A DNA stretch of 47,810 nt from Candidatus Omnitrophota bacterium (GCA_018400015.1 JAGYNB010000006.1:1-47810), one strand, 5' to 3'; shown: positions 3,217 to 47,810, numbered from the stretch's first letter. The notes: generated by a model not told the origin, from the letters alone. Program-made: numbers and translations.

Positions 3217-3252
3217 TTAATGATTGTTTATTAAAAAATAACTTCTTGAATA

Positions 3253-4518: not shown

Positions 4519-4526
4519 TTTTTTAT

Positions 4527-4599: not shown

Positions 4600-4608
4600 A
4601 GAAAAATA

Positions 4609-4684: not shown

Positions 4685-4696
4685 ACTTAAGGCATT

Positions 4697-4725
4697 ATTT
4701 TACTAATATTTGCTGTTTCTGTCAA
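4697..4725 (-). promoter_or_regulatory. Sigma-70-type promoter of the tRNA-Phe/tRNA-Thr/MFS unit
   Basis: On the minus strand TTGACA (4720-4725) is followed after 17 bases by TAAAAT (4697-4702). The predicted start is near 4690, about 6 bases before the mature tRNA-Phe 5' end. The -35 box sits directly after the stop codon of the nuclease gene. This is pattern matching only, but the boxes and spacing are close to ideal. Confidence 0.75.
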
Positions 4726-5514
4726 CTAATCTATTATCTCAATCTGCACAGGGTGCCTTACGATAATCTGGGCTGCGCCCTTATATTCGCTTATTCTGCC
4801 TGAAACCCTTATAACCCTGCCTGCAAAGTGTTCAAATATATTAATACCGGCGCGCTCAAAATTTATGATGTCTTTTCTGAAAATAACTACCTTTAAGGCT
4901 TCTTTCCTGGTTTCATCATCAAAGAATACCATAAATAGATTTGGTCTTTCTACTAACCCAGCAAAGCGCCCTTCCACATTCTTAATCGAACCGATAAAAT
5001 CCTTGGCAAGCGCTGCCGGAATAACATCTTTTTCCTGCCAAATACCTTTTCTCAAAGCCCTTGCTTTTTTCTGGGCATCTAAGAATTCATCTACATACTT
5101 AATATTAGGCGGATATGTAAAAATAACCGCCAGGCCTTCATCAAGCAGTTTTTCATTTACGAAAGTTGTATCTTGAAAGCAATACCCCAAAAGCCTGCCA
5201 TACTTATCTTCTTTCTGTACGTCAAACTCTAGTCTTACTTTCTTACCCTCAACAAGCTTACGATTCAATTCCTTGGCCTCTACGGCATACTCTTTTGGAT
5301 CATACTGCCAAGAGCGTCCAACTTTATTCGTTATCTCGGGGGTATCGATTCCGATATACCTGAGCGTCTGGCCATTGGTTAAAACAACCGTATCTCCATC
5401 AATAACCTCCTTAACGACATAGAACTTTTCACCTGGTGTATGGTTAGTGCAGCCGCAGAGAAAAAAAGCCCCCAAGAAAACAAGAATAAAAAACAACCTG
5501 AATCTTTTTATCAT
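4726..5514 (-). CDS. Thermonuclease (SNase)-family lipoprotein with extra C-terminal domain
   Basis: The 262-residue protein starts with a lipoprotein signal ending LCGC (lipidated C22). A staphylococcal-nuclease domain follows (about 30-160), with IDGDTVVL, RYIGIDTPE and DKYGRLLGY. The catalytic arginines (R52, R107), the glutamate (E60) and the metal-binding aspartate of the DGDT loop are all present, so it should be an active Ca2+-dependent nuclease anchored outside the cytoplasm. Residues about 170-262 add a second small beta-rich domain, possibly a nucleic-acid-binding OB fold. It ends the NSS transporter unit and begins 4 bases after the DUF3568-like gene. A role in using extracellular DNA is a guess. 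Confidence 0.9.
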   Translation of the reverse strand: MIKRFRLFFILVFLGAFFLCGCTNHTPGEKFYVVKEVIDGDTVVLTNGQTLRYIGIDTPEITNKVGRSWQYDPKEYAVEAKELNRKLVEGKKVRLEFDVQKEDKYGRLLGYCFQDTTFVNEKLLDEGLAVIFTYPPNIKYVDEFLDAQKKARALRKGIWQEKDVIPAALAKDFIGSIKNVEGRFAGLVERPNLFMVFFDDETRKEALKVVIFRKDIINFERAGINIFEHFAGRVIRVSGRISEYKGAAQIIVRHPVQIEIID

Positions 5515-5518
5515 AGGA

Positions 5519-5908
5519 TTATTTTATTGCCGAAATCTCTTTGTTGATCTTTATGTATATCTTCTGGGCAAGATCTATATTCGGCAAAAGATACTTGGTG
5601 CGTGCAGAAACTCTTAAACGAACGGTGTTTTTTGTAAGCTCTTCTATTCTGATATTAACGTTATTCCTGTCAACCTCCACGGCCAAAGTTCCTTTAGTTC
5701 TGTCTTCGGCTCTAATGATGCCGGTAATTTCACTCACCTTTATTGCCGCGCCCCAAACAGTGCCGACATCTTGAGCAACTTCACCTTGGATAGTATCTTT
5801 ACTCACTGCATAACCGCCTAAAGCACCTACCCCGATAAATAAAGGCAAACAACCAGAAATCGATAAACACAAAAATAATACTACTAGAACTGAAAAAATA
5901 TTCTTCAT
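5519..5908 (-). CDS. DUF3568-like lipoprotein
   Basis: The 129-residue protein has a signal sequence with lipobox SISGC and then a Gly/Ala-rich stretch (FIGVGALGGYAVSKD), followed by a compact alpha/beta domain with repeated beta strands (LAVEVDRNNVNIRIEELTKNTVRLRVSARTKYLLPN). This pattern matches small DUF3568 lipoproteins, for which no function is established. It starts downstream of the 34-residue transporter small-subunit gene, with a good Shine-Dalgarno sequence (AAGGAG), and is followed 4 bases later by the nuclease lipoprotein. Confidence 0.75.
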   Translation of the reverse strand: MKNIFSVLVVLFLCLSISGCLPLFIGVGALGGYAVSKDTIQGEVAQDVGTVWGAAIKVSEITGIIRAEDRTKGTLAVEVDRNNVNIRIEELTKNTVRLRVSARTKYLLPNIDLAQKIYIKINKEISAIK

Positions 5909-5920
5909 TATTATCTCCTT

Positions 5921-6025
5921 TTAATCTATTTTCTTCTTGCTGATTACCTTATAAAAACAAAACACAATTCCAATTATAATAACTGCCCAACTTACACCAA
6001 AAAATATCCACCCGCCTGTATTCAT
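5921..6025 (-). CDS. Small subunit of NSS-family transporter (MetS-like), 34 residues
   Basis: A short frame from ATG 6025 to TAA 5921 starts MNTGGWIFFGVSWAVIIIGI, then a second hydrophobic half, and ends in a basic tail (KVISKKKID). It is a single membrane helix with a charged C-terminus. Small one-helix partners of this shape (MetS type) are known beside bacterial neurotransmitter:sodium symporters that import methionine or alanine. It begins 2 bases after the stop of the adjacent NSS transporter, which strongly supports translation and partnership. I recognise the family by size, topology and position, not by a long alignment. Confidence 0.8.
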   Translation of the reverse strand: MNTGGWIFFGVSWAVIIIGIVFCFYKVISKKKID

Positions 6026-6027
6026 TA

Positions 6028-7590
6028 TTAAACTGCCTTGTTTAATTTTCTTTTTCGCCAAGCGATTTTTACCATAATCGCCAAAGCGATAAGCATGGCC
6101 AATAAAACAATCCTGGTTGTTAAAATATAAGGTCTATTCTCTAAAGAAACATTCTTCATCACTATAATCGGAATCCATTCCTGATAAAACCAGGTTCCCA
6201 GTATTACGAATAAAAAAGCAGGTGTAACGTATTTTATAATAAACTTATACACTCTTGGAATACGGATATCTGCTCCTTTATGTATCTCATCCCAGGCATT
6301 TTCCATACCGAATACCCAGGCAAAAAGTATAGTCTCGATTGTCGCAAACACTACTAAAAAGAATGTACCACCCCAGAAATCAAGCTCGTCGACTACGCCG
6401 CGGGATAAGAAAAATATCGCTCCCTGAGACAGAGTAAAACTCACCAAAGCAAATATAGCAACAGCCTTTTTCCTCGTTAAAGCAAACTCATCTTCTAAAA
6501 ATGCTACGGCAGGCTGCGCTAGAGATACAGCTGAAGTTATACCTGCTAGAAAAAGCAGAAAAAACCACAAGAAACCAAATACCTGCGAAAAGGGAATATT
6601 ATTTAAAATCAAAGGCATGGTTACAAAACCCAGATTAAAGACCCCTGAAGCAGCAATATTCTTTATCTCCATCGGACCAAAAAAAACAAAGGCCGCAGGA
6701 ATAATAATGCTTGCGCCTAAAACAACTTCGGCCATTTCATTAGTGCTGGCTGCTGTCAGGCCTGATAAAGCAACATCGTCTCCTTTAGACAAGTAACTGG
6801 CATAGGTCAAGATTACGCCTATCCCCACGCTTAGCGTAAAGAAAATCTGGCCTGCTGCTTCAAGCCAGACCTTGGCGGACTTTAATGCAGAAAAATCAGG
6901 ATTCCACAAAAATCCAAGGCCATTACTAATATTCCAAGAAGGCCTGGCAACATTAGGTGTGCCAAGAGTAAACACTCTCGCTAAAAGTATAACCGCAAAA
7001 ATCAACAGTAACGGCATGGCTATTTTACAAAGTTTCTCAATCCCGCCTTTTATCCCATAATAAACAACCCAAATAGTTATAATAAACGTGACCAGGAAAA
7101 ATATATAAGCAGGAACTAGACTATTAAAATATTGATTAATTTCTATGCCTTGAAACCCGCGCAAGAATGCCTGCATTGTAGATTGATCAAATATGGAAGC
7201 GTATTTACCGGTTAAAGCAAAAAAACTATAGCCTAATGTCCAGCTGGCAATATAGCCATAATAGGTAAATATTACCAAAGGCCCAAATATACCGATAATA
7301 CCGAAATATTTAATAAAACGGTTCTTTTGTCTGACGCTATGGAAAATCCCCGGAGCTGTGCCATGTTCAAAACCGCCGCCATATCTGCCTAAAGCCCATT
7401 CTACCCATACTAACGGCAGACCTAATAATAGTAACGAAACAAAATAAGGTATCATAAAAGCGCCGCCGCCATTTGAAGCTGCTTTGGCAGGAAAGCGCAG
7501 GAAATTCCCCAGCCCCACGGCAGAACCGGCAACTGCCATAATAATGCCGATACGAGAACCCCAGCTGTCTCTTTTTTTAATTTTACTCAT
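6028..7590 (-). CDS. Sodium-dependent transporter of the NSS/SNF family
   Basis: The 520-residue protein has the N-terminal signature WGSRIGIIMAVAGSAVGLGNFLRFPAKAASNGGGAF, which contains the unwound first helix and the sodium and substrate sites of the LeuT-fold NSS family. About twelve membrane segments follow. It probably imports an amino acid with Na+; the small MetS-like gene 2 bases downstream suggests methionine or a small neutral amino acid. The gene has its own promoter, whose predicted start is about 3 bases before the ATG, so the mRNA would be leaderless. With Rnf in the same window, the cell may run a sodium economy, though the Rnf ion cannot be read from sequence. Confidence 0.95.
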   Translation of the reverse strand: MSKIKKRDSWGSRIGIIMAVAGSAVGLGNFLRFPAKAASNGGGAFMIPYFVSLLLLGLPLVWVEWALGRYGGGFEHGTAPGIFHSVRQKNRFIKYFGIIGIFGPLVIFTYYGYIASWTLGYSFFALTGKYASIFDQSTMQAFLRGFQGIEINQYFNSLVPAYIFFLVTFIITIWVVYYGIKGGIEKLCKIAMPLLLIFAVILLARVFTLGTPNVARPSWNISNGLGFLWNPDFSALKSAKVWLEAAGQIFFTLSVGIGVILTYASYLSKGDDVALSGLTAASTNEMAEVVLGASIIIPAAFVFFGPMEIKNIAASGVFNLGFVTMPLILNNIPFSQVFGFLWFFLLFLAGITSAVSLAQPAVAFLEDEFALTRKKAVAIFALVSFTLSQGAIFFLSRGVVDELDFWGGTFFLVVFATIETILFAWVFGMENAWDEIHKGADIRIPRVYKFIIKYVTPAFLFVILGTWFYQEWIPIIVMKNVSLENRPYILTTRIVLLAMLIALAIMVKIAWRKRKLNKAV

Positions 7591-12238: not shown

Positions 12239-13306
12239 TTAGAATGATTTCTCGATTGTACCTCCGCCAATAAGGATGTCATCTTTATAAAAAACAGCTG
12301 CCTGCCCGGGGCTAACCCCAAACTGCGGCTTTGAAAAAACCACCCTTACTTTATTATTCTTTATAAACCTTAACTTACTGCGTATTGGAATATGATTATA
12401 TCGTATCTTAACAGCTACTGCAAGACATTGCGAAGAGCGTTTTTTTATAAAAAATTTCACATCTTTTGCAACCAAACCTTTAAACATAACATCATTCTTA
12501 CAGGCAACGGTAATTCTATTTCTTTTTTTATCGATTTTGCACACATAAAGCGGCTCTTTATAACTAAGTCCTAGACCTTCGCGCTGACCTACGGTATAAA
12601 AAGGTACGCCTCTGTGTTTACCGATTATCTTCCCTTTCAGATCAACGATATCACCAGAAGAAAATTTAAACTGACGAAGGAATTGCCGGTAGTCCATACT
12701 GGATAAAAAACATATTTCCTGGCTTCCTTTTTTGTTATCTACGGGAAGTTTAAGACGTTTGGCAATATTTACAGCTTGCTTACGCGTAACGCTTGATAAA
12801 GGAAACAAAAGACGCGGCAAAACTCTTTTATGCACGCCATATAAAAAATAGCTCTGGTCTTTTTCGGTATCTTTTGCTTTCTTAATCAGAAAAGTTTTTT
12901 GCCTTTCGTCAAAATATACCGTGGCATAATGACCAGTAGCAAAATAATCAGCGCCCAAATCCAAAGAGACTTTAAAAAGAGAAGAAAATTTTATATATCT
13001 ATTGCATAATACGCAGGGATTAGGCGTTCTGCCAGAAAGATACTCATTTATAAATTTATCTATTACCTTTTTCTTAAAATCATTTGAAAAGTCTACCTCG
13101 TAATGATTAATTTTTAAGATGCGGGCGATTTTTTTTGCCTGTCGCATGCCTTTATCGCTAAAATACCTATTAAGCCCTAGGTAATTATCTATTTTGGAAA
13201 AACTCGCCGTTAGGGCAATTACCTTAAAACCTTGTTTCCGAAGCAACCAGGCAGAAACAGCGGAATCTATACCTCCGCTTAATGCAATAGCCACTGTCTT
13301 TTTCAC
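12239..13306 (-). CDS. mnmA: tRNA-specific 2-thiouridylase
   Basis: The protein (about 355 residues) has the PP-loop SGGIDSAVSAWLL at its N-terminus, the catalytic NPCVLCN cysteine, the second catalytic cysteine in GSQEICFLSS, and the ATGHYA and VGQREGLGL blocks of MnmA. It activates U34 of Lys, Glu and Gln tRNAs with ATP and inserts sulfur. I prefer the GTG at 13306, which overlaps the receptor stop as GTGA; a TTG one codon earlier is possible. The setting beside Thi4, CysK and HcyS fits a sulfur-handling gene group. Confidence 0.96.
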   Translation of the reverse strand: MKKTVAIALSGGIDSAVSAWLLRKQGFKVIALTASFSKIDNYLGLNRYFSDKGMRQAKKIARILKINHYEVDFSNDFKKKVIDKFINEYLSGRTPNPCVLCNRYIKFSSLFKVSLDLGADYFATGHYATVYFDERQKTFLIKKAKDTEKDQSYFLYGVHKRVLPRLLFPLSSVTRKQAVNIAKRLKLPVDNKKGSQEICFLSSMDYRQFLRQFKFSSGDIVDLKGKIIGKHRGVPFYTVGQREGLGLSYKEPLYVCKIDKKRNRITVACKNDVMFKGLVAKDVKFFIKKRSSQCLAVAVKIRYNHIPIRSKLRFIKNNKVRVVFSKPQFGVSPGQAAVFYKDDILIGGGTIEKSF

Positions 13307-15066
13307 CAATTTAACCTCATTCCTAACCTAACCAACCTTCCCGGAGAAGGAATTCCTTCAATCTGTTCATATTCAACATTAAATAAATTATCCGCTTCTA
13401 AAAAAATACGCTTATTGCTGTTTACTTCAAATACAGTTTTATAATCACATAATACCCAACCGTCCCTGGAGGCTTTTTTCTTATAGCTTAAGCCAAAATA
13501 ATGCGAAAATCTATTCTTTTTAAGATTAACACCCGATGAAATAAGATGCTTTGTGTTGCTCACTCCATACTTATAGTTAAAACCATCCTGGGAATATTTA
13601 TTGGTATAAGTATAATTCAAAACTAATTTAAAATTAGGGTTGATGGTATAGGCAACCATGTTATTTACTCCCAAAATTGAACTATCTAAATTTTCTGCCT
13701 GCCAAAGACTGGAAGTATTAACTTTAACCCAATCAATTTCATTATCCTGTTCTTTTAAGAAAACGCTCTGGATAAAATCAACTTTGTTTAATCTGCTTTT
13801 ATAACCTAATTCATACTTATAGCCTGATTCGCAAGACAGACCGGAATTGCCTATAGTGGTGGAATCGCTGTAATAAAGCTCGGTATAAGACGGAAGCCGT
13901 AAAGACCTGGATGCCTGAACAAATAAAGAACAATGATCATTAACCATTATATCGAATAAAATGCTTCCGGAAGACAACCCTGCATACTCATCACTATAAT
14001 CAAACCTATATCCTAGCGTACAAGCCAAAAATTGGTTAATATCTATTCTGTCATTAATATAAGCGCTGTACATCATACGCCTGTGTTTATTAAGTCTAAG
14101 AGAATTAATCTTTTCTTCCAACAATCTTAAGCCTAGATCTAATTTGCCAAAACCGGATTCTGATTCGATATCTAAATAAGTCGAATATACATCGCTTTTA
14201 TGATTATTCATATAAAGATTGGGATTGGTTCTCTCTAAAATAAAGGTATCTTTATGCTTGCGCATGAGAAAACCCGGTTTTATTTTTATTTGACCGAAGT
14301 CAAACTCGCTATCAGCAATTAAAAACTTTGTTGAAACCATTTCCTTAGAAGCAAACCCGCTGCCAGGCGTATAAAAGTCATATGCGCCCAAATCCTTAGC
14401 AATATAACCAAACCCCAGATCAAAAGAAAAATCATCTTTGAAAATAGAGAAAAAATCGCTAAATTTTAATTGTTTTTGTTCGGTAAATGGCTGAAAGCCA
14501 TCGGATATCATCCTTTCAAAAGTTATCCTATTGCCAAAACTATCATTTGACATAGTTGCGCTAATTAGTCCAGAGAAAGTATCATGATTGCCAACCCCGG
14601 CTTCAAAAATTGTCTTGTTGTCGTTTGCTTTTTTTATCAAAAAATTCACTGCTCCAAAAGAACAGCCCGGCCCCAATTGAACCGCTGAATCGGTATTTTT
14701 TACTTCTGTTAAGGCTATATCCTGATTAGAAAACGGCAAATCAAGATTATAATGCGCTGTTTGAGGATCATTAAAGTTTTTTCCATTAATGGTTATTAAC
14801 ACCTGCTGGAAATTAGACCCCCATAAAGAAATATCCTGTTGTGCAGCGAAAGTACCTCTTGTTTGCAGATCCACACCTGATAAACTATTTAAATAGGAAA
14901 TACTATTTACACTTAAACTATCAAGAACCCGATCTTGGCTTATTTCATGCGGAGAGAATTTATCCTTGCTAACGATTATTTTATCTAAAAACTCATCTTG
15001 GGCAAAACCAGTACAAGTAAGAAAAAATAAACTAAACAAAAATAAAATATTTCTTTTTAAAGACAT
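13303..15066 (-). CDS. TonB-dependent outer-membrane receptor, BtuB-like
   Basis: The 587-residue protein has a signal peptide (MSLKRNILFLFSLFFLTCTG then FAQ), a short TonB-box-like segment (DKIIVSK), a plug domain (LDSLSVNSISYLNSLSGVDLQTRG, GSNFQQVLITINGKNFND, NTDSAVQLGPGCSFGAVNFLI) and a beta barrel that ends in an aromatic strand (LVRLGMRLNW). It imports an unknown ligand across the outer membrane. Its size and plug fit BtuB-type receptors, and its place after the homocysteine and cysteine genes is compatible with cobalamin or another sulfur-pathway cofactor, but this is inference. There is no room for a cobalamin riboswitch upstream. It overlaps mnmA by a few bases. Confidence 0.9.
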   Translation of the reverse strand: MSLKRNILFLFSLFFLTCTGFAQDEFLDKIIVSKDKFSPHEISQDRVLDSLSVNSISYLNSLSGVDLQTRGTFAAQQDISLWGSNFQQVLITINGKNFNDPQTAHYNLDLPFSNQDIALTEVKNTDSAVQLGPGCSFGAVNFLIKKANDNKTIFEAGVGNHDTFSGLISATMSNDSFGNRITFERMISDGFQPFTEQKQLKFSDFFSIFKDDFSFDLGFGYIAKDLGAYDFYTPGSGFASKEMVSTKFLIADSEFDFGQIKIKPGFLMRKHKDTFILERTNPNLYMNNHKSDVYSTYLDIESESGFGKLDLGLRLLEEKINSLRLNKHRRMMYSAYINDRIDINQFLACTLGYRFDYSDEYAGLSSGSILFDIMVNDHCSLFVQASRSLRLPSYTELYYSDSTTIGNSGLSCESGYKYELGYKSRLNKVDFIQSVFLKEQDNEIDWVKVNTSSLWQAENLDSSILGVNNMVAYTINPNFKLVLNYTYTNKYSQDGFNYKYGVSNTKHLISSGVNLKKNRFSHYFGLSYKKKASRDGWVLCDYKTVFEVNSNKRIFLEADNLFNVEYEQIEGIPSPGRLVRLGMRLNW

Positions 15067-22985: not shown

Positions 22986-24986
22986 TTAAAACTTCGCTGT
23001 CAATGAAGTATAGATTGCACGCTCGATCTCATCTAAAGCTACAATGCCGGCAGATGAACCTGCCTTAGCTTCAACATGGCTTTGGTCAAGGATATTCTCG
23101 CCTCTTATGGCCCATTCTAAATCACCGTCAAAGAATGTCTTGGCAATACGAAAATCAACCCTAAAATAAGGATCGACTTCAGTGCCTTTATCAGAGGTAT
23201 TCTCAAAATCGCGGGTAACATACGTATCTACATAATACCCGTCGAGATTGATCGTAATTCCTTTTTCTTTTAAATCCAGCCTTGTACCTAAATTAACCTT
23301 GAACTTCGGCATGGAATTTTCATATACAGCCAAGGTATCATTCAATACAGCATGCGTTGCATTAACATAAAACTTACTCCAGTCATTCGGCCTATATTCC
23401 GTGCTTAACTCTATGCCTCTGCCTCTTGCGGTATTGGCATTATTAAAAGTAGCAACTGTTGTCGTAGGCATATAAACATGGAAAAGGTTATTATATTCGT
23501 TATAATATATCTGCGCGTCAAGAGTGAGTTTTTTATCAAGTAAATATGAAGTATAACCTAACTCATATGCATCCACAACCTCATTTTCCAGTTCGCGATT
23601 ACCTTTAGTATAGGTATAAAGAACTGATGGAATAATAGCAATAGCAAAATTCTGCGTATCCTCAAGCATAGTAGGAGTTCTATAGGCTCTTGCATAACTT
23701 GCCCTAAACATCCTATTCTCTGTTGGGGCAAACATTAAACTCACCCTCGGTGAATAAGACTCACCGACAAAATCATTTGTCTCATACATAAGACCGGGAA
23801 TGAATTTCAATTTTTCATTAAGTTTAATTTCATTATTCATAAAAACCCTGAAAATACGATCCGTAACTCCTTTCCCGTCATAACGCGTTGACAAGTCACT
23901 GCTACCATTCATTAGATAAAACTCTCCACTGTTATGCCTAAAGTTACTGCCCCAGACAGTGCTTATAGCATCATCCAGCCAATCAAAACTATGCTGGACT
24001 TCCAAATCATACTGCCTGGTTTCTGAATTATTTTTATCATATAAATATACTGCACCGTGCCTATTCTCAAGCACTTCATTTCTAAACAGCTGTACATAAA
24101 AATCCTGATCATCAAACACTTTAGTATTGTATCTGATCATCTGGAAATCGCTTCTTGTATCAGACTGATTATTCGTACTTTTAGTAGTTACGGCTAACGG
24201 GCGTCCATCGTCTTCCTTATCACCAAAGAAAAACTCTAAATTAGATTCATCATCTATATTATAAACACTTCTCCATGTAAATGTATGATCGCGCTGTTTA
24301 TCATTTAAATCCTTACCATCTCTTGAACCGTAACCGTTGTCAAAATGATACGCGTAAGTTGCGCGGTAATCAAAATTGCCTGTTGAATTGCCAAAACGCA
24401 CCATACTCCTTGTGTAATCATGAGTTCCTATGGTTTGTTTAAGGGTTGTGCCTTGCGTATCCTCAGGCTTTTTGGTAATTATGTTAATAACACCACTGAA
24501 CGCATTGGAACCGTATAAAGTAGCATTGGGCCCGCGGATGACCTCAATTCTTTCAATGTTCTCAGGAAATATGGGAATATAATCCCATTCTGTACCGCCA
24601 AATAACGGCGTATAAGAAGAACGCCCATCAATAAGAAGCTGATTGCGCCTTGTGAACACTTCCGAAAAACCTCGCGGAGCAACAGCACCTCTTCTTCCAT
24701 CATAAGTAGAAACATCCACACCAGGCACTCTTCTAAAAAGATCCCAGAGATTTGCATAATCCATATTCTTTATATCATCGGAGGTAATAACGGATATGGC
24801 AGCAGGCGCTTCTAAAATCGACTGCTCGTGTTTACTAACGGAAGTTACAATCGGGATATCCGTAAACATCAACAATTCTCTCTGAGGAGTAGCTTTAGCT
24901 AAAAGCATCACATCGTCTGCAAAACAATTTAAGGAAAAAAGAACAATCACAAAAACAAATAAACAAATACTTAAAACTTTTTTCAT
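22986..24986 (-). CDS. TonB-dependent outer-membrane receptor
   Basis: The 666-residue protein has a signal sequence, a TonB-box region (MFTDIPIVTSVSK), a plug domain (APAAISVITSDDI, LWDLFRRVPGVDVS, NIERIEVIRGPNATLYGSNAFSGVINIITKK) and a long beta barrel rich in alternating aromatic and polar strands, ending LTAKF with a terminal aromatic. It belongs to the FepA/CirA-like receptors. The substrate cannot be deduced. It begins 1 base after the stop of a single-domain response regulator, an unusual coupling, and is followed by the periplasmic binding protein gene, so the two could act in one uptake or sensing path. Confidence 0.94.
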   Translation of the reverse strand: MKKVLSICLFVFVIVLFSLNCFADDVMLLAKATPQRELLMFTDIPIVTSVSKHEQSILEAPAAISVITSDDIKNMDYANLWDLFRRVPGVDVSTYDGRRGAVAPRGFSEVFTRRNQLLIDGRSSYTPLFGGTEWDYIPIFPENIERIEVIRGPNATLYGSNAFSGVINIITKKPEDTQGTTLKQTIGTHDYTRSMVRFGNSTGNFDYRATYAYHFDNGYGSRDGKDLNDKQRDHTFTWRSVYNIDDESNLEFFFGDKEDDGRPLAVTTKSTNNQSDTRSDFQMIRYNTKVFDDQDFYVQLFRNEVLENRHGAVYLYDKNNSETRQYDLEVQHSFDWLDDAISTVWGSNFRHNSGEFYLMNGSSDLSTRYDGKGVTDRIFRVFMNNEIKLNEKLKFIPGLMYETNDFVGESYSPRVSLMFAPTENRMFRASYARAYRTPTMLEDTQNFAIAIIPSVLYTYTKGNRELENEVVDAYELGYTSYLLDKKLTLDAQIYYNEYNNLFHVYMPTTTVATFNNANTARGRGIELSTEYRPNDWSKFYVNATHAVLNDTLAVYENSMPKFKVNLGTRLDLKEKGITINLDGYYVDTYVTRDFENTSDKGTEVDPYFRVDFRIAKTFFDGDLEWAIRGENILDQSHVEAKAGSSAGIVALDEIERAIYTSLTAKF

Positions 24987-36918: not shown

Positions 36919-38016
36919 TTATTCTCCTGTTTCTAAAATACTACAGGCACCGACACTATTAGCAATGGTCGGACCAATTTGTTTTAGATAATCAGCATCG
37001 AACCTTTGTATTACATAAACCAACTTTTTAAAAGGGTCTATTATCTCAACGGGAACATAAAGTCTGGTGGTGATAAAATCGGCTATACCGCGAAGATTCG
37101 CACCCGCACCTAAAAGAACAATCTTGTTCATTTTTTGTATCTTGGAAAATGTTAGTTTAAAAGAAAGATACTTAAAAGACCGTTCTATATCGCTAACCAA
37201 CCTTTCTAATTGTGTGGTTATGGCGTATACGCTCTGTTTATCACTACCCAAAGTAACATAAAAAGACTTGTCTTCAGAATATTTTGGCTCCGTAACTAAA
37301 CCAATACGCCTTTTTGCATGCTCTGCGTCAGTTGGAGCAAAATCGCAATAATCGGAAATAGCCTTTGTAATCATATTGCCGTTTACTGTCAGATTGCGGT
37401 AAAAATGAATATTGCCTTGAAATATAACCGAGAATGAACTCTGGCTTGCGCCCAAGTCTAAAATTCCTACAACTTCATCCTCTTTGATCGCACCCTGATC
37501 AATCAATAAATTCGTAATAGCGACATTAGATGGCTGCAGACTTACCACTTCAACACCAAAATTCTGTATCTCATTTATCAACTTGATTGTTTCATCTTTT
37601 AAAACAGCTAACCCTAAAACATTCAAACGGTTCCCTTGCAAATCTCCTGCCTTGTCCAACAAAATATAATCTATATTTGCCTTCTCAGCCGGAATTTTAA
37701 ATTTATCTGCCATTTCCCACTTCATAATAGAGCTTAATTCATCGTTAGATGCGGAAGCGACACTAAAACGCTCCATCATAACCATTTCATAAGGCAAGGC
37801 AATGCTAACTTTACTATCAGCTAATCTTCTGGAAATAATTTCTTTTAAAAAACCTCTTCTAAAATCTGTGATCTTCTCCTGATTATCATCGGCAAGCAGC
37901 CCGTAAGGAATTTCTTTCAAAAAAAGATTTTCCATACGTAATTCTTTTTTATCTGAAACTATCTCAACAGCCTTAAGATTATAAGAACCTAAATCTATAC
38001 CGATTAAAGAATTCAT
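36919..38016 (-). CDS. pilM: PilM, actin-like cytoplasmic assembly protein
   Basis: The 365-residue protein has the FtsA/actin fold: IGIDLGSYNLKAVEI at the start, VGILDLGASQSSFSVIF in the middle and IVLLGAGANLRGIADFI near the end form the nucleotide-binding site. PilM binds the N-terminal peptide of PilN and couples the inner-membrane complex to the cytoplasm. It overlaps the last of five receiver genes by 4 bases (ATGA), which places those receivers in the same unit as the apparatus. Confidence 0.95.
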   Translation of the reverse strand: MNSLIGIDLGSYNLKAVEIVSDKKELRMENLFLKEIPYGLLADDNQEKITDFRRGFLKEIISRRLADSKVSIALPYEMVMMERFSVASASNDELSSIMKWEMADKFKIPAEKANIDYILLDKAGDLQGNRLNVLGLAVLKDETIKLINEIQNFGVEVVSLQPSNVAITNLLIDQGAIKEDEVVGILDLGASQSSFSVIFQGNIHFYRNLTVNGNMITKAISDYCDFAPTDAEHAKRRIGLVTEPKYSEDKSFYVTLGSDKQSVYAITTQLERLVSDIERSFKYLSFKLTFSKIQKMNKIVLLGAGANLRGIADFITTRLYVPVEIIDPFKKLVYVIQRFDADYLKQIGPTIANSVGACSILETGE

Positions 38017-38378
38017 TTATTAAGTAGCTCCTTTACCTTCTGTATTAAAATCTCGGTTTCAAAAGGTTTAGTGATGTAGGCGTTAGCGCCTACGTCTTCA
38101 CCCAGTTTTTTATCCTTATCCTGGCTTCTAGCGGAAAGAATAATTACAGGAATATTCTTGAATTTCTGGTCAAACTTTAACATCTTGCAAACCGTATAAC
38201 CATCCCGTTTAGGCATCATCAAATCCATAATTATCAAATCAGGATTAACCAATCTTGCCTTATTCAAACCATCATCTCCGTCAATAGCAGTCACAACCTC
38301 AAAACCTTGAGCCTGCAATCTTATCTTTATTGCCGCTACCAACTCAACTTCATCGTCAACTACAAGAATCTTTGCCAT
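38013..38378 (-). CDS. Single-domain response regulator, fifth of five in tandem
   Basis: The 121-residue receiver has DD (8-9... acidic pair in VVDDEVE), phospho-acceptor D52 (IMDLMMPKRDG), switch serine (LSARS) and lysine (ITKPF), so it should be phosphorylatable. No output domain. It stands at the join to pilM (4-base overlap) and is the best candidate for a receiver that touches PilM or another apparatus part. Confidence 0.95.
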   Translation of the reverse strand: MAKILVVDDEVELVAAIKIRLQAQGFEVVTAIDGDDGLNKARLVNPDLIIMDLMMPKRDGYTVCKMLKFDQKFKNIPVIILSARSQDKDKKLGEDVGANAYITKPFETEILIQKVKELLNK

Positions 38379-38381
38379 GAT

Positions 38382-38753
38382 TTAAATCCATTTGTTAAGT
38401 AAATTAAGTAAACTTTGCGTATCAAAAGGTTTATTGATATAACCCTGAGCACCTGCATTATTTATTTTTGATTCTATATCCTTATCTCCTGCAGCTGTGA
38501 ACATTATAACAGGAATTGATTTAAATTTATCCTGCGATTTTATTCTTTTGCATATTTCTAGACCGTCCGCCTTCGGCATAATGTAATCTAATAATACTAT
38601 GTCCGGTTTAAAACTTTCAATCAACGCAATTCCTTCTACCCCATCGGTAATGGTTTTTACCTCAAAACCGCTGGCAGTCAAACGTATCTTTAAAGCCATG
38701 CCCAGCTCTATCTCATCATCAATAACCAAAATCTTTTTTTTTATTTCACTCAT
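38382..38753 (-). CDS. Single-domain response regulator, fourth in tandem
   Basis: The 123-residue receiver has the acidic pair (VIDDEIE), phospho-acceptor D56 (LLDYIMPKADG), switch threonine (FTAAG) and lysine (INKPF). It is closest in look to the next receiver (38013-38378), sharing the MPK-DG loop, which suggests duplication. It overlaps the gene before it by 8 bases. Confidence 0.95.
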   Translation of the reverse strand: MSEIKKKILVIDDEIELGMALKIRLTASGFEVKTITDGVEGIALIESFKPDIVLLDYIMPKADGLEICKRIKSQDKFKSIPVIMFTAAGDKDIESKINNAGAQGYINKPFDTQSLLNLLNKWI

Positions 38754-39120
38754 CTTTAATCATCTTTTTTATTTTTGACTCTAACATGTTAAGCTCAAAG
38801 GGCTTGCTTAAATGATCATACGCGCCTAACTGCATTGATTCTATAGCTGTTTCCATAGTGCCGTGGCCGGTAAGCATCAACACTTTCAAAGACCTGCTTA
38901 TAGTTCTTGAATGTTGCAATACTTCAAGACCCTTCATGTCAGGAAGCTCTATATCAAGCAGCATCAAATTAGGCTGAAAAGTCTTTAAGGCATCAAGTGC
39001 ATCTTTACCACGATTAACCGCCATTACCTCATAACCTTTTTCACCCAAGAAATCCTTTAATAAATTGCATATAACCTCTTCATCATCAACCACTAGTATT
39101 TTATAGTTTTTCTCTTGCAT
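38746..39120 (-). CDS. Single-domain response regulator, third in tandem
   Basis: The 124-residue receiver has acidic pair (VVDDEEV), phospho-acceptor D56 (LLDIELPDMKG), switch threonine (LTGHG) and lysine (LSKPF). Its AIESMQLGAYDHLSKPFEL segment resembles that of the receiver at 39124-39513 (TLEAMQLNVYDYLSKPFEL), so these two are probably paralogues of NtrC-like receivers without the rest of the protein. Confidence 0.95.
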   Translation of the reverse strand: MQEKNYKILVVDDEEVICNLLKDFLGEKGYEVMAVNRGKDALDALKTFQPNLMLLDIELPDMKGLEVLQHSRTISRSLKVLMLTGHGTMETAIESMQLGAYDHLSKPFELNMLESKIKKMIKDE

Positions 39121-39123
39121 AGT

Positions 39124-39513
39124 CTATTGTTTTTTAAAAAGTTTATCGATTCTTTTATCCAACTCTTTAAGCTCAAAAGGCTTAGACAGGTAATCATAAA
39201 CATTTAATTGCATCGCTTCAAGAGTTGTCTTTGTGCTTCCATAAGCCGTAAGTATAATTACCTGTAAATCTTTGTTCAATTTAATAATATCCTTATCTTC
39301 AATTCTTGCCTTTTGCAAAACATGGATGCCATCAATATCAGGCAGCCCCAAATCCAAAAGCATAAGGTCGAATTGCTTTTCTTTTAAAAGTTCCAGCGCG
39401 TCAACACCCTTTAACGCCTTTACCACATTAAAATTGCGCTTTCTTAAATAATGCTCCAAGGAGTCCAAGAAAGATTTTTCGTCGTCTACTAAAAGAATAT
39501 TAAGCTGCTTCAT
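39124..39513 (-). CDS. Single-domain response regulator, second in tandem
   Basis: The 129-residue receiver has acidic pair (LVDDEKS), phospho-acceptor D54 (LLDLGLPDIDG), switch threonine (LTAYG) and lysine (LSKPF). A small insertion (IEDKDIIKLNKD) between the third strand region and the switch makes it longer than its neighbours. It overlaps the first receiver gene by 4 bases (ATGA). Confidence 0.95.
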   Translation of the reverse strand: MKQLNILLVDDEKSFLDSLEHYLRKRNFNVVKALKGVDALELLKEKQFDLMLLDLGLPDIDGIHVLQKARIEDKDIIKLNKDLQVIILTAYGSTKTTLEAMQLNVYDYLSKPFELKELDKRIDKLFKKQ

Positions 39514-39887
39514 TTATTCTTAAGAATACTATCGATTTTCTCAACCAATAATTTAGTATCGAACGGCTTAGCAATATGATCCACTACATTCATGCTAAAT
39601 GCTTCCAGCGCTGTTTTCATTGTACCATAGGCTGTAAGAATTATCACCGGAACCTTTTCGTCGATTTCCCTTATTCTTTTCAATGTCTCAATACCGTCCA
39701 TATCCGGCATCATCACATCCAATAAAATAAGATCCGGAATGACCTCTTTAAACTTCTGCAAGCCAACAGATCCAGAATTGGCAATATTAACTTCATACCC
39801 GCATGCCTTTAACCTTATGTCTAAAGAATTTGCCAGCTCTTCTTCATCATCTATTATCAATATCTTTTTCTTGGCTATCTCTACCAT
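39510..39887 (-). CDS. Single-domain response regulator, first in tandem
   Basis: The 125-residue receiver has acidic pair (IIDDEEE), phospho-acceptor D57 (LLDVMMPDMDG), switch threonine (LTAYG) and lysine (IAKPF). It begins 17 bases after the large histidine kinase gene, with a GGGGGT-type ribosome site, and is the most likely direct partner of that kinase. Confidence 0.95.
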   Translation of the reverse strand: MVEIAKKKILIIDDEEELANSLDIRLKACGYEVNIANSGSVGLQKFKEVIPDLILLDVMMPDMDGIETLKRIREIDEKVPVIILTAYGTMKTALEAFSMNVVDHIAKPFDTKLLVEKIDSILKNK

Positions 39888-42357: not shown

Positions 42358-42385
42358 ATTATAGAATAAATACTATTTATGTCAA
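42358..42385 (-). promoter_or_regulatory. Near-consensus promoter at the head of the receiver/pilus run, predicted leaderless
   Basis: On the minus strand a perfect TTGACA (42380-42385) and a perfect TATAAT (42358-42363) are separated by 16 bases. The expected start near 42351 is only 2 bases before the ATG at 42349, and there is no ribosome binding site in between. It is the strongest promoter match in the window. Confidence 0.8.
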
Positions 42386-42454: not shown

Positions 42455-45400
42455 TTACTTAATTATGCGTATTTTTTGAAGCTTGATTATTGCTTGAGGA
42501 CTAAAAACTTCCCTAATGTTTTTTGAATCTTGAATATTCTTTAAGAAATCTTCGAAGATTGATTTCTCAAACGTAACCCTATTTGACTGGATTGTATTTT
42601 TTATATATTCATGGATGCTTTTATTAGCACATGTCCTCTGGCTGCAAGAAACCCCCCTTTCAGCCACTGACTCAATATAATTATTGGCGAGTTTATTTAA
42701 CTTTTCTTTTTCAGGACTCCAAAAACCTAGTCTTGCCGCATCAAGTAAAACTGTTGTAACATCTTGATAGACATACGGATTTGACTCTGATAAAAACTTA
42801 TCTAATTCCATATCCAGGCTGTCCTCAAAAAAGACTTCCATAGTCTTGTCCCAAACACTCTCAGGCACTGCTTCAGGATTGGTTATCTGCCAACCAAGAA
42901 TATTCTCTACGTATTTTTTCATCTCTACTGCACCGCTTAAATTTTCCTTCATCATTGCTTTTAAATATACCGGATTCCAAAGCCTTGTTATCGCTTCATT
43001 AGCAAGTGCTTCTTTAAGCGTTAACACATCAGGATTATTTACATCGCGGTTATCAACAAAAAATACGCTAGTTTCACTTCCTGTCAATAAATCAGCAGCC
43101 AAGGATAATCCCCCTGAAAATTCATAAGTATGATCTAAAGATAGCGGACCGCCGAGGCGTTTTATCGAACGGGTCTGTACTACCATATCTGTTTCACTAA
43201 ATAAATCTTCCAACAGCGCGCTGTTTTTTTCACCCCAACCGCATGACGAATAAAAATAAGACATGTTGTTCAGATGTGCTTTTGCGATATCGCTTTTTTT
43301 CTGCCAACTGGAAGTATTTTTAAAAAATAAAGAAAGTCCTGTTCCGTAAAAACCTTCTTTAGGACCGAATACTCTTACTGTGCTCAATTTTTTTGCCTTA
43401 TCCTGTTCAACTCCCTGCTGTATTAAATGATCGAACAACTGGGTTGAATTTTCATTTACAAAATTAAACTGCTCCTGCATCTTTGCTTCACTTGCCAACT
43501 TGACAGCTTTTTCGATTAATTCTATTCGCGAAGCAAAGTTATCTCTGTATTCACCTGATATCTGAACCAATACATCAATTCTTGGACGAGCAAGTTCTTC
43601 TTCGGGGATCAATTCAACATTTAACACTTGGCGTTGATTACTATAGACCGGCCTTACACCCAATAAATACAATATCTGCGACTCGGTAATGCCCTGATCG
43701 ATTACAGTATTAACCCCCCAAAGAGTATAGGCAATTTTTTTTGGAAAACGGTTATTTTCTTCAATAAATTTTTTAAGTAATTTATCAGCAGCTAATTTCC
43801 CGGCAATCCAGGCCGGCTGTGTGGGTATCTCTATAGGATTTACACCATAAAGGTTTCGCCCCGTAGGAAGCGAGGCCGGGTTAAAAACAGCGTCCCCGCC
43901 GGTAGAAGGAAAAATATATTTTCCTTCTAAAAATCTTACACAAGCTGAAATTTCATCTTGGGAACTTCTAAGATCATCGATATAACTCCTTGCATTTATA
44001 AAATCCTGTTTTGCAAAAGTATACTCTGGAGAATAATCTTTTAATACCTCATCCAATGTTTCCCCATTAAAAATCCTTGAAATTATTTTTAATGCATCGG
44101 ATTCTATCTCCTGCTCTTTATGGCAGGCTAACTCTTCTTTAGAGCTATTCCCTGAGAAGTTAAATATGTTCTCTTCAAGTGAATTTCTTACCATAGAAAA
44201 AATCAGCCTTTCCTGAAGACTCCTTTCAGGCAATCTGCCATAACTGTGCATCCCTGCAGGAATAAGCTCCCTAGAAAGATGGTGAATCCGGTCATGAATC
44301 TTTTTAACTTCACTCGCAGTAATAAGATTATTTTCGATATTTAATTCGAATAGGCTATCAAGTTTATTTTCCAAAACTGAATCCGTAATTTTACGCAAAT
44401 AACCTTGCTGCAAAGAATCATCATTTATTAATAAAAATTTATGTATATCATCAATTAAATCCTTCATGCCCAATTGGCAGTCCGATTCAATTAACGCCGG
44501 TGCCAAATGAGATAAAATTACCGCCAGGGTTTTTCTTTTGGCAATCAAAGCTTCTGCTACATCATCAACTATATATATATAAGCATGAGGCAAATCCATT
44601 ATCAAAGCGTCGCTATAATTATTTTCATCTAAAAAACTTTCCCTGCCGCGCAAGAACTCCAAAGAACCATGTGTACCAAAATGAATCAAACTATCAGCAT
44701 TAAATCCATATTTTGCCCAAAGATAATTAAGGCAGTAAAAATCACTTGGCGTGTCTATAATATCGTGCTTAATAATACCGTCATCTAACGATTCTGATAC
44801 AGGCGGCTGGGGCATTATGGCAATATTGCCAAACTGCATAACTGGCAGTTTAAATAATTTCTCATCATCTGTTTTTTGAATCATAAAATCGCTTTTCAGC
44901 CAGCGTTTTTTAGCTATAATATCTTCTTTTAGTTTTTCAGGAAGCTCCTGCTTCACCCAACTCTGATAAGTCTGTATGGCCACATTTATAAAATCTTTAT
45001 CGGATAGATTATTGAAATCAACCTCGTGCCAGGGGCCAAAAAATATATTGTTTTGCTCCAATTGAATAGAAAACTCACCCCTAGAAGGCAACTTACCAAT
45101 GTTAAAACCACTCGATTTTAATACTAACAAAAAATTATAAAGGCTTTCGGATAAATTAAGCCCGCTGACATTTACAGAAGATTTTCCAAAATCGCGGTAA
45201 TAAAACACAACAACTTTCTTCTTAGAGTTATCCTTAGTACGCAATATATTCCATCTTTTTAACCTCTTGGCTAACTTATCAATCCTTTCTTCTATCGGAA
45301 CAAGCGTGGCTAAAGCGCCAGCCTCTTCATCGCTAAGCGCTGAAACTGCCACCGGTTCAATCCCGGAATCTACTTCAGGCATCACCAATGACTGAGCCAA

Positions 45401-46291
45401 CAAAGGTGCGACCATACGGTTAAAATTATTTTTCCAATCAGAATAACTTTGTTGCAATAAGTTGACTGCTAAAAAAACCGGAGCATCGATTTGACTGAAT
45501 AAATCTTTTAACTGCTGATCATCAAAAATCCTTCCGTGTGGAGAACATACAATCAAATCGGGTTTTATCTGCTTTAGCAATCTGCCTCTTACATCTTTTG
45601 ATAATCCCATAACCGGAAAAACCAAAAACCCTTCCTGTTCAATACGATTAATTAAGAATCTCAATAGACTTTTATTTACTTCGTTTCTTGGCCCAATATT
45701 AGTAGTAACTAAAGCCAATCTTGGTTTATTTAAGGAATTTTTATCGAGTTTTTTTAAATAAACCATGTAGTCATCTATATTCTGAAAGATATTTTCATCC
45801 AAAACAAATATCCCTGATGAAGGCTTGGCCTTTAAAGAATGATTTTTCTCCTTAAACGTAAAATTATTCTTTATATAATCTAAGATTAATCTGTAATTAT
45901 TTATTCCTGCTGAATAATATGCGCTTTTAATGAAATTTCTCGATTGTATGTCTATGTTGCTGAAAAGGTCTCTTTGGGAATTAAGGTGAATTATTTTTAT
46001 ACCTAAAGTACCAAGCAGTTTTATATTCTTAGTTTCTCTTTCAGATATGTTTTGCCCCATAGTTGAAATAAATAAAACATCCCTAAAGAAAATATCCTTA
46101 AAATATACTGGTATATTTTTTATTGAATCGATCTTTAAATCTTTTTCCTGGCAGGCCTGTTTAAACTGAGAAATATCAAAATCAGCAAAACCATAAAAAA
46201 CAATCTTCGGCTGACGCAAAAACAAAAATAAAACACCGACGATAAAAATTACTATAACGAGGCTAAGGCCAAAAGTCTTAAGTCTTTTCAT
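42455..46291 (-). CDS. Membrane-anchored CobN/BchH-family tetrapyrrole chelatase (HmuS-like)
   Basis: The 1278-residue protein starts with one membrane helix (about 7-25) and then a CobN/magnesium-chelatase H body. Family signatures are LIHFGTHGSLEFLRG (537-548, H541 and E545), AGMHSYGRLP (679-688), PTGRNLYGVNP (809-819) and VLVQISGEYRDNF. Soluble CobN and BchH insert Co or Mg with ATPase partners, but no CobS/CobT or ChlI/ChlD-like gene is nearby and there is no cobalamin-synthesis gene. Known membrane-anchored CobN relatives include HmuS, which removes iron from heme in Bacteroidetes. The gene overlaps the radical SAM gene by 4 bases (ATGA), so the two are a unit. Whether it inserts or removes metal, and which, is open. 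Confidence 0.88.
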   Translation of the reverse strand: MKRLKTFGLSLVIVIFIVGVLFLFLRQPKIVFYGFADFDISQFKQACQEKDLKIDSIKNIPVYFKDIFFRDVLFISTMGQNISERETKNIKLLGTLGIKIIHLNSQRDLFSNIDIQSRNFIKSAYYSAGINNYRLILDYIKNNFTFKEKNHSLKAKPSSGIFVLDENIFQNIDDYMVYLKKLDKNSLNKPRLALVTTNIGPRNEVNKSLLRFLINRIEQEGFLVFPVMGLSKDVRGRLLKQIKPDLIVCSPHGRIFDDQQLKDLFSQIDAPVFLAVNLLQQSYSDWKNNFNRMVAPLLAQSLVMPEVDSGIEPVAVSALSDEEAGALATLVPIEERIDKLAKRLKRWNILRTKDNSKKKVVVFYYRDFGKSSVNVSGLNLSESLYNFLLVLKSSGFNIGKLPSRGEFSIQLEQNNIFFGPWHEVDFNNLSDKDFINVAIQTYQSWVKQELPEKLKEDIIAKKRWLKSDFMIQKTDDEKLFKLPVMQFGNIAIMPQPPVSESLDDGIIKHDIIDTPSDFYCLNYLWAKYGFNADSLIHFGTHGSLEFLRGRESFLDENNYSDALIMDLPHAYIYIVDDVAEALIAKRKTLAVILSHLAPALIESDCQLGMKDLIDDIHKFLLINDDSLQQGYLRKITDSVLENKLDSLFELNIENNLITASEVKKIHDRIHHLSRELIPAGMHSYGRLPERSLQERLIFSMVRNSLEENIFNFSGNSSKEELACHKEQEIESDALKIISRIFNGETLDEVLKDYSPEYTFAKQDFINARSYIDDLRSSQDEISACVRFLEGKYIFPSTGGDAVFNPASLPTGRNLYGVNPIEIPTQPAWIAGKLAADKLLKKFIEENNRFPKKIAYTLWGVNTVIDQGITESQILYLLGVRPVYSNQRQVLNVELIPEEELARPRIDVLVQISGEYRDNFASRIELIEKAVKLASEAKMQEQFNFVNENSTQLFDHLIQQGVEQDKAKKLSTVRVFGPKEGFYGTGLSLFFKNTSSWQKKSDIAKAHLNNMSYFYSSCGWGEKNSALLEDLFSETDMVVQTRSIKRLGGPLSLDHTYEFSGGLSLAADLLTGSETSVFFVDNRDVNNPDVLTLKEALANEAITRLWNPVYLKAMMKENLSGAVEMKKYVENILGWQITNPEAVPESVWDKTMEVFFEDSLDMELDKFLSESNPYVYQDVTTVLLDAARLGFWSPEKEKLNKLANNYIESVAERGVSCSQRTCANKSIHEYIKNTIQSNRVTFEKSIFEDFLKNIQDSKNIREVFSPQAIIKLQKIRIIK

Positions 46292-47619
46292 ACCCTGCCA
46301 AACATATGGTTTAATTTCATTTTTATCAAGCGTAAGATTTGTTTTGGCCTTGAATAAAATTCAAAATAGGCCTTGTCATGCATTTTCTTAACCATCTTAC
46401 CGTCATAACCGGAAAACTCAAAAGGAATCAGATATTTATGATAATTTAAAGATTCAAGATTGCTCTTATAGGCAAACGTTGCCTTTGCGCTTAACTGATT
46501 ATAATATTTAGTCCCGGGTAACGGTGTTGCGATATGAAAACCGGCAATATCCAAAGGCAGGCTTTTGGCAAACTTAATCGTATCTTTCATTGAATTATAA
46601 TCATCATAAACAAACCCGAGCATAAAAAAACCTAACGTATATAAACCCGCTTTTTTCGCTAAGGATATTGTTTTTCCTACCTTTGAAAGATCAAGACGTT
46701 TGCTTACCTTATCCAACACCTTTTGACTGCCTGATTCGATACCAAAAGCAACGAATGAAAACCCTGCTTTTTTCATCAAACGAAACATCTCTTCATCGCC
46801 GATATCTGAACGTATGCCTGCAAAAACAGAAAAAGAAATATCCTTATATCCGCGCTCTATTATCTTTGAACAAATTTCTTTGACCCTATCTGGATAAAAA
46901 GTAAAATTATCATCTGCAATGGAAATTCCTTTTACCCCAAATCTATTAACCAACTCATCGATCTCAGCAAGGATATTTTCAACGCTTCGCAGCCTTAATT
47001 GATACCCATGGATATTTTTTGTACAGAATACACAATCATATGGACAGCCACGGCTTGTTAAAAACAAAACGAATGGCTGTTTTATGTAACCTCTTCTTTT
47101 GACAACAGGCCTGTACTTACCTAAATCAAAATCTTCCCAGGCGGGAAAATTAATAGAATCGATATCATTAATAAATTCTCTTTTTTGATTGATAACAACC
47201 TTGCCTTTATCAAAATAAGCGATTCCTTTGATTTCAGATAAGGCCTTACCCTGCATTATCTCAACAACAATATGTTCGCCCTCTGATAAGACTACAATAT
47301 CGCAATATTCAGGAATCAGCTCCTTATAAATAGCTGCTGCCTGCGGCCCGCCGAAGATTATTTTTTTATCAGGGAATTTTTCTTTAATAAAACCTGCTAT
47401 GGAAACCGCGCTTTCGATATTGCCGATTGTAGCTGTTATGCCCACATAATCAAAAGATGCTGCTAAAGAAAAAATCTTATTTAAATAGTCCTGCTCGATA
47501 TTGCAATCAATTATTTTATAAGCGAATTTTTTCTTTTTTAATGCGCTTGCTAGATATCCAAGTGCCAAAGCAGGCACAAACACATAAGGTTTGTAATCAA
47601 GCGGATTAATTAGGAGCAT
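46288..47619 (-). CDS. B12-binding-domain radical SAM protein
   Basis: The 443-residue protein has an N-terminal B12-binding-like Rossmann domain (about 1-140, with VGITATIGNIESAVSIAGFIK, then IIFGGPQA and VVLSEGEH) and a radical SAM barrel with the cluster motif CPYDCVFC (C192, C196, C199), followed by IADDNFTF and FGIESGSQKVLD. Family members include BchE and many methylases and cyclases; the reaction here is not predictable. It ends in a 4-base overlap with the CobN-like chelatase gene, which points to tetrapyrrole work. I see no ribosome binding site before the ATG at 47619. Confidence 0.92.
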   Translation of the reverse strand: MLLINPLDYKPYVFVPALALGYLASALKKKKFAYKIIDCNIEQDYLNKIFSLAASFDYVGITATIGNIESAVSIAGFIKEKFPDKKIIFGGPQAAAIYKELIPEYCDIVVLSEGEHIVVEIMQGKALSEIKGIAYFDKGKVVINQKREFINDIDSINFPAWEDFDLGKYRPVVKRRGYIKQPFVLFLTSRGCPYDCVFCTKNIHGYQLRLRSVENILAEIDELVNRFGVKGISIADDNFTFYPDRVKEICSKIIERGYKDISFSVFAGIRSDIGDEEMFRLMKKAGFSFVAFGIESGSQKVLDKVSKRLDLSKVGKTISLAKKAGLYTLGFFMLGFVYDDYNSMKDTIKFAKSLPLDIAGFHIATPLPGTKYYNQLSAKATFAYKSNLESLNYHKYLIPFEFSGYDGKMVKKMHDKAYFEFYSRPKQILRLIKMKLNHMFGRV

Positions 47620-47659: not shown

Positions 47660-47810
47660 TTACCTGACTTCTCTCCACTGGTATATGGTAGTACCGCCGG
47701 GCTGAATAGCGCCAAAAGTCAACTCACCTTCTTCTATATCGAATATGTCCTGTTCCGGAAGAGGCGTGACTGTAACTTTTTCCGCCATCATATTTTCAAC
47801 CTTAATAATT
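47660..47810 (-). CDS. C-terminal end of an unrecognised protein (5' end outside window)
   Basis: An open frame enters from the right edge and stops at TAA 47660-47662. The last 49 residues end with GELTFGAIQPGGTTIYQWREVR. I do not recognise it; the segment is acidic and then ends in a beta-like stretch. The radical SAM gene begins 40 bases further on, so co-transcription is possible. Because only a fragment is visible, treat as a partial gene of unknown function. Confidence 0.55.
   Translation of the reverse strand, partial: IIKVENMMAEKVTVTPLPEQDIFDIEEGELTFGAIQPGGTTIYQWREVR

Follow-up and report, generated by a model that had tools for sequence, protein, structure and literature searches.

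The class I chelatase superfamily contains one characterised enzyme that removes iron from heme and leaves the ring intact, HmuS, which has been described as a primarily Bacteroidota system. According to Nath et al. (PMC12583661), HmuS converts heme anaerobically, with NADH, to protoporphyrin IX (PPIX) and Fe(II), and its active site requires His538. The protein resides in the inner membrane and is thought to face the periplasm (PMC12583661; PMC13227078 is supporting rather than definitive). In PMC12583661, a Met-rich insertion is family-defining within a set at least 50% identical to the Bacteroides thetaiotaomicron protein, and the sequence logo best represents the relatives of that protein. 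Here, we describe a gene pair from a Candidatus Omnitrophota bacterium of the uncultured anaerobic genus Candidatus Gygaella, located on a stretch of 47,810 nucleotides (GCA_018400015.1, JAGYNB010000006.1:1-47810), hereafter called the window. The window is the entire contig 56 of a 69-contig genome of 1.41 Mb that is 93.5% complete. The downstream gene of the pair encodes an HmuS-related class I (de)chelatase of 1278 residues with an N-terminal membrane anchor (42455..46291, minus strand), and the upstream gene a radical S-adenosylmethionine (SAM) protein of 443 residues with a B12-binding domain (46288..47619, minus strand).

Relationship of the large protein to HmuS

In the Pfam comparison, the large protein matched CobN-Mg_chel (787 bits, positions 6-1089 in a profile of 1090), and all CobN/BchH equivalogs of NCBIfam stayed far under their cut-offs (best 581 vs 1619). 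The top match among solved structures was HmuS of B. thetaiotaomicron with 566 bits, followed by ChlH (306) and CobN (275). A maximum-likelihood tree of 20 proteins united the large protein and its homologue from Candidatus Gygaella obscura with five HmuS-like proteins at a support of 100/100. These five originate from Bacteroides, Prevotella, Aureibacter and two Omnitrophota (G276 and G394), and all are encoded beside ExbB and DUF2149 genes. Outside this clade lay CobN and BchH, as well as those membrane CobN-like proteins that other ExbB/DUF2149 clusters encode. Judged by these comparisons, the large protein is neither a cobalamin CobN nor a BchH; it is a sister lineage of HmuS and not HmuS itself under the definition of PMC12583661, which asks for a complete hmu operon and for 50% or more identity with the B. 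thetaiotaomicron protein; its identity to an HmuS relative from Bacteroides finegoldii is about 30%.

The residues around the metal agree with this placement. HmuS positions were assigned by alignment, with the numbering of the PDB chain, which matches the literature at HFGTHG 534-539. Met79, Gly80, His254, Gly255, Arg256, Gln299, His506, His538, Glu577, Asp1208, His1209 and Glu1212 are all kept. Met79-Gly80, which provides an axial ligand of the head/neck heme, corresponds to Met78-Gly79 (46055..46060), and His254-Gly255-Arg256 with the second axial ligand to His252-Gly-Arg254 (45530..45538). The catalytic His538 corresponds to His541 within an HFGTHG motif at residues 537-542 (44666..44683), while His1209 and Glu1212 are represented by His1054 and Glu1057 within LSLDHTYEFSGG at residues 1050-1061 (43109..43144; all on the minus strand). 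The CobN/BchH-type controls carry neither the Met79-Gly80 nor the His254-Gly-Arg set and, at 1209/1212, show Asp/Gln in most cases. The presence of His1209 alone does not single out HmuS, as it also occurs in a BchH sequence and in a membrane CobN-like protein from Azospirillum. His1209 and Glu1212 together are missing in nearly all of these controls, the exception being the Azospirillum protein, which also has an isolated His at 254.

Other positions have changed. In both Gygaella species, the segment LSLDHTYEFSGG departs from the LSLDHxxEFMGG motif of HmuS at a single position, where S replaces M. Also, Phe502 is replaced by Gly, Gln1142 by Ser, and Glu1146 and Glu1281 by Lys. Of the residues Ser1014, Ser1067, Gln1198, Ser1199 and Trp1202, which are strictly conserved in HmuS, only Ser1067 is kept; operonic HmuS-like proteins of other Omnitrophota lose some of these residues, too (e.g. 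Ser1014 and Gln1198 in G276a). Taken together, the alignment supports an HmuS-type metal site combined with a different ring-edge pocket in a sister lineage. Hydropathy predicts the membrane anchor at residues about 7-28 (46208..46273, minus strand).

The original prediction, made from the window sequence, had described a CobN/BchH-family giant with an N-terminal membrane helix, had regarded it as HmuS-like rather than as a cobalamin CobN, and had proposed a tree of CobN-family proteins as a check; the profile match, the top structural match, the kept ligands and the position of the Gygaella proteins in the tree are all in line with this. Also as predicted, no chelatase ATPase subunit and no cobalamin-synthesis gene turned up in a Pfam scan of the 32 window proteins. 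The gene is patchy in its phylum: among the genomes examined, any match to the large protein was confined to 5 of 293 from the class and 6 of 384 from the phylum. An AlphaFold2 model computed from a two-sequence input reached a predicted local distance difference test score (pLDDT) of 30.8 and was discarded.

Proposed iron removal by the large protein

We give a probability of roughly 0.5 to the reading that the large protein takes Fe(II) from heme or a heme-like ring in the periplasm and that FeoB imports the iron. In this mechanism, the divergent, membrane-anchored HmuS-lineage protein would face the periplasm, and heme or a heme-like iron tetrapyrrole would dock at the Met78/His252 site. 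At the bis-His site formed by His541 and His1054, the ring would be protonated and the metal would leave, by the anaerobic chemistry proposed for HmuS. The released Fe(II) would be imported by FeoB, which is encoded elsewhere in the genome (contig C5). Periplasmic Fe(II) removal is favoured because the equivalent of the catalytic His538 and the facing His1209 are kept, and the altered ring-edge pocket suggests that the substrate ring is other than heme b or that the range of rings is broader.

Several observations weigh against iron removal from heme. With a length of 1.41, the Gygaella branch is long, and since it splits off outside the remaining HmuS, its closest relatives are not the two HmuS-like proteins of Omnitrophota that the tree contains. 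The propionate pocket is altered (Ser1014 to Gly, Gln1198 to Ser, Ser1199 to Ile/Thr, Trp1202 to Leu/Phe). The Met-rich insertion of domain IV is absent, residues 700-790 comprising 90 amino acids with 1 Met; the corresponding stretch has 248 amino acids with 32 Met in Prevotella, and the protein from a full hmu operon of B. finegoldii shows only a weak insertion (143 amino acids with 8 Met). A C-terminal membrane helix is absent from the hydropathy profile, which has a single hydrophobic helix at the N-terminus. There is no DUF2149 gene in the source genome, so the usual energising partners are missing; one ExbB and one ExbD-like gene are present, away from the pair. Furthermore, no TonB receptor is linked to the pair: the receptors in the window that had been suggested as possibly feeding it are real (13303-15066 and 22986-24986) and unlinked, roughly 18-29 kb away. 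The genome also makes its own tetrapyrroles, so that the large protein could serve an internal pathway, and metal removal and insertion are not distinguishable from sequence.

The radical SAM partner and competing explanations

The stop codon of the radical SAM gene and the start codon of the HmuS-like gene share an ATGA (46288..46291, minus strand), which had been predicted and was found again in Ca. Gygaella obscura, the only genome that a contig search for relatives returned. There, the genes are located at 1043-2374 and 2371-6201 of locus L004, with unchanged order and identities of 86% (radical SAM protein) and 80% (CobN-like protein). The ratio of nonsynonymous to synonymous substitution rates (dN/dS) between the two Gygaella species is 0.07 for the radical SAM gene and 0.11 for the CobN-like gene; both genes are under purifying selection, and hence neither is a decayed or chance open reading frame (ORF). 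Plasmid records were used as a stand-in for a wider comparison of gene adjacency. Conserved adjacency, proposed earlier as a check, held for the sole sampled genus-mate and not outside the genus: no B12-type radical SAM gene stands beside the HmuS-like gene in four other Omnitrophota genomes or in annotated plasmid loci. No description of the pairing, regarded as new in the original prediction, was found in the accessible parts of the literature on HmuS and radical SAM enzymes.

A gene for a surface protein, of which the C-terminal end is present (47660..47810, minus strand), stops 40 nucleotides before the radical SAM start. The same distance is found in both Gygaella genomes, and in both the contig end cuts this gene; the remaining end in Ca. 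Gygaella obscura has a weak DUF6701 match. On the other side, a promoter-like site with perfect consensus (TTGACA-16-TATAAT; 42358..42385, minus strand) precedes the next response-regulator gene, so the transcription unit of the pair probably ends with the HmuS-like gene. Promoter and terminator scans were overall no richer than shuffles, and this 12-of-12 match at 42385 is the sole site relied on. It is the gene arrangement that argues for co-expression of the chelatase and the radical SAM protein. Foreign origin of the pair was not supported by base composition (G+C fraction 0.353 vs 0.367 for the window). The pair adjoins pilus/secretion genes. Five single-domain response regulators follow each other at 38013-39887, beside a histidine kinase and pilM, in an order that is kept in Ca. 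Gygaella obscura, and genes of an Rnf complex (RnfD/E-type, RnfC) are located at 475-3216 at the low end of the contig.

As predicted, the partner is a B12-binding radical SAM protein, with Pfam matches to Radical_SAM (84 bits) and B12-binding (45 bits) and the CxxxCxxC motif present as CPYDCVFC. A particular kinship to BchE was not supported, since relatives linked to glycans or hopanoids are at least as close. Assignments to HpnJ (197.7 bits, cut-off 578) and BchE (158.3 bits, cut-off 481) were both rejected on the NCBIfam scores and on the tree, in which the protein lies outside both clades. Assignment to HutW/ChuW/HugW was also rejected, given the B12-binding domain and only 21-22 bits against HemW and coproporphyrinogen-oxidase models. 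The tree groups the protein only with its genus-mate and a paralogue on contig C12, with no firm branching order deeper down; orthologues (E below 1e-80) are confined to Gygaella among 293 class genomes, so that the protein represents a Gygaella-specific subfamily. The C12 paralogue is 44-46% identical and located away from any chelatase gene. Its copy in Ca. Gygaella obscura (C11:43-1314, L051) is divided into two ORFs by an in-frame TAG and could be a pseudogene or an assembly error. The source genome contains about ten B12-type radical SAM relatives, several of them in an apparent surface-polysaccharide locus (C1:286-306 kb).

Hydropathy revealed neither an export signal nor a hydrophobic segment in the radical SAM protein, which is thus probably cytosolic, works in another compartment than the chelatase and probably modifies a separate substrate. 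A direct substrate link between the two proteins is not favoured, because the compartments differ, the phylogeny carries no porphyrin signal and the pairing occurs in one genus (two genomes). The chances are about equal for and against the radical SAM gene being a mere hitch-hiker in the operon, whose product takes part in making or decorating a lipid, glycan or protein of the cell surface and is functionally unlinked to the chelatase. Related plasmid genes sit in glycan, fatty-acid or hopanoid clusters, the nearest in glycosyltransferase/epimerase or hopanoid clusters, and both the surface-type protein gene 40 nucleotides upstream and the adjoining pilus/secretion genes fit such a role. Against it, the two genomes that can be compared share the overlap and the gene order at a nucleotide identity of about 80%, so the arrangement is at least tolerated. 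Since a hitch-hiking radical SAM gene does not conflict with periplasmic iron removal by the large protein, the confidences given to these explanations overlap.

Two further explanations depend on the tetrapyrrole genes of the source genome. The region C1:155121-168897 (L052) contains B12-uptake genes (TonB receptor, BtuF/BtuC-like transporter, ATP-binding cassette (ABC) ATPase, corrinoid adenosyltransferase) and tetrapyrrole genes (SirC-like, HemA-like, HemC-like, CobA-HemD, NirJ/AhbC-like radical SAM, HemB, AhbA-like, AhbB-like, HemL), of which HemA, HemC and the ABC ATPase were named by sequence resemblance only. Together with an AhbD-like gene of the cluster described next, this gene content makes synthesis of siroheme probable, and likewise that of heme via the siroheme route. 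A nitrogenase-like cluster at C1:8759-16855 (L074) comprises an AhbD-like radical SAM gene (C1:8759-9793) beside NifH-like and NifE/D-like genes, a gene resembling BchB of dark-operative protochlorophyllide reductase (DPOR; 146 bits), and two further AhbD-like radical SAM genes; this reductase cluster with its tetrapyrrole-type radical SAM genes perhaps serves further tetrapyrrole modification. Selenocysteine was considered for radical SAM genes on C1 flagged with one TGA and rejected, as the ORFs are intact and encode full-length SPASM proteins with their own stop codons.

With such genes at hand, the HmuS-like protein might instead act on a ring of the cell's own synthesis that is not heme, inserting or exchanging its metal; the ring would be either siroheme-derived or a product of the nitrogenase-like reductase. 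No CbiX-type chelatase was found in the source genome and the pocket residues are altered, as this explanation would expect, but we regard it as unlikely: the anchor and the HmuS kinship indicate the periplasm, where such pathways are not located, ferrochelation could be the task of a CysG-N/SirC-like protein, and the HmuS-type Met79/His254 heme site is intact.

Less probable still is a two-step anaerobic pathway in which the chelatase strips the iron and the radical SAM protein modifies or opens the freed porphyrin after its entry into the cytosol. PPIX is not an intermediate of the siroheme route to heme. Any PPIX that a dechelatase released would thus lead nowhere and need disposal, which leaves room for a ring-processing partner in a genome with siroheme/Ahb-type genes. 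The ATGA coupling in both Gygaella species and a radical SAM class that includes BchE also speak for such a pathway. However, the radical SAM protein belongs neither to the BchE clade nor to the HutW/ChuW type, the pairing was not seen outside the genus, and the closest of its B12-type relatives in the genome is unlinked to any chelatase. The joint chemistry originally predicted is weakened by the different compartments (hydropathy; PMC13227078, PMC12583661): HmuS relatives probably face the periplasm, and a porphyrin would need to cross the membrane to reach a protein that has neither signal nor helix. Yet more doubtful is the specific form of an undescribed anaerobic route, in which heme b would not be the substrate: the HmuS-lineage enzyme with its altered ring pocket would strip the metal from a different iron tetrapyrrole, and the B12-type radical SAM protein translated with it would then modify or open the freed ring. 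Finally, despite the family name CobN/BchH in Pfam and NCBIfam, it is highly improbable that the large protein is an ordinary CobN of the cobalamin pathway whose CobS/CobT partners are unlinked, in view of the equivalog scores, the tree, His1209/Glu1212 where CobN has Asp/Gln, the membrane anchor and the B12-uptake genes of the genome.

Significance and comparison with known systems

An Omnitrophota sister lineage that has the metal ligands and does without the Met-rich insertion, the C-terminal helix and HmuTUV shows which parts the core reaction may need. Thereby, the Gygaella protein offers a natural test for what the ExbB/DUF2149 partners, the propionate pocket and the insertion contribute. 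Should a link to the radical SAM protein be proven, the pair would represent a new oxygen-independent way of processing porphyrins. The occurrence of a distant HmuS cousin in Ca. Gygaella suggests that oxygen-free extraction of iron from heme has an older origin and takes more varied forms than the sole gut system studied would indicate.

HutW, ChuW and HugW, which open heme anaerobically, are class C, HemN-like radical SAM enzymes. The Gygaella partner is likewise a radical SAM protein but of a different class, with a B12-binding domain and with HpnJ/BchE-type models as its best matches. With BchE and HpnJ it has the B12-binding and radical SAM domains and the CxxxCxxC motif in common, and it is shorter than BchE at the C-terminus.

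Membrane CobN-like proteins encoded beside ExbB and DUF2149 on Trichlorobacter, Azospirillum and Runella plasmids resemble the large Gygaella protein in combining the CobN family with membrane helices. They differ in having mostly LDnDD in place of LSLDH, form a separate clade and are linked to cobamide, iron-transport or hydrogenase genes. These proteins (loci L032, L034, L058) form an uncharacterised wider family, with settings that include cobamide lower-ligand genes (Trichlorobacter), hydrogenase maturation (Runella) and iron transport (Azospirillum).

Closer to the Gygaella protein are the HmuS-like proteins of four other Omnitrophota genomes (G276, G394, G294, G058), with which it shares the phylum, the catalytic positions and, for G276 and G394 as the two included in the tree, the larger clade. 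Their genes stand beside DUF2149 and ExbB-like genes, with FeoB nearby in two loci and a TonB receptor in three; some gene names at these loci were given by resemblance to annotated plasmid operons, without a Pfam call. The order in G294 is Fur-like, FeoB, TonB receptor, ExbB-like, ExbD-like, TonB-like, DUF2162-like, MotA/ExbB, DUF2149, HmuS-like. Bacteroidota HmuS relatives are also found beside ExbB/DUF2149 (and DUF2162-like) genes, often with FeoB and TonB genes. The Omnitrophota loci with these partners (L035, L037, L038, L041) extend the hmu-like system beyond Bacteroidota. In the proteins at L037:7844-11998 and L041:1-3022, His-Ala replaces the Met79-Gly80 of other HmuS, which could give the head/neck heme two His ligands there. 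Unlike the Gygaella gene, the other Omnitrophota genes carry the DUF2162-like/ExbB-like/DUF2149 set, some with FeoB, Fur-like and TonB genes near, and their products group with Bacteroidota HmuS, whereas the Gygaella protein branches outside them.

Compared with HmuS of B. thetaiotaomicron itself (PDB 9D26; PMC12583661), the Gygaella protein has neither the Met-rich insertion nor the C-terminal helix and reads LSLDHxxEFSGG instead of ...MGG, and its gene is paired with a radical SAM gene and has no hmuYRTUV beside it. Both proteins belong to the class I chelatase family, with six domains by sequence and an N-terminal anchor, and both carry Met79-Gly80, His254-Gly-Arg, Gln299, HFGTHG with His538, Glu577, Asp1208-His1209 and Glu1212.

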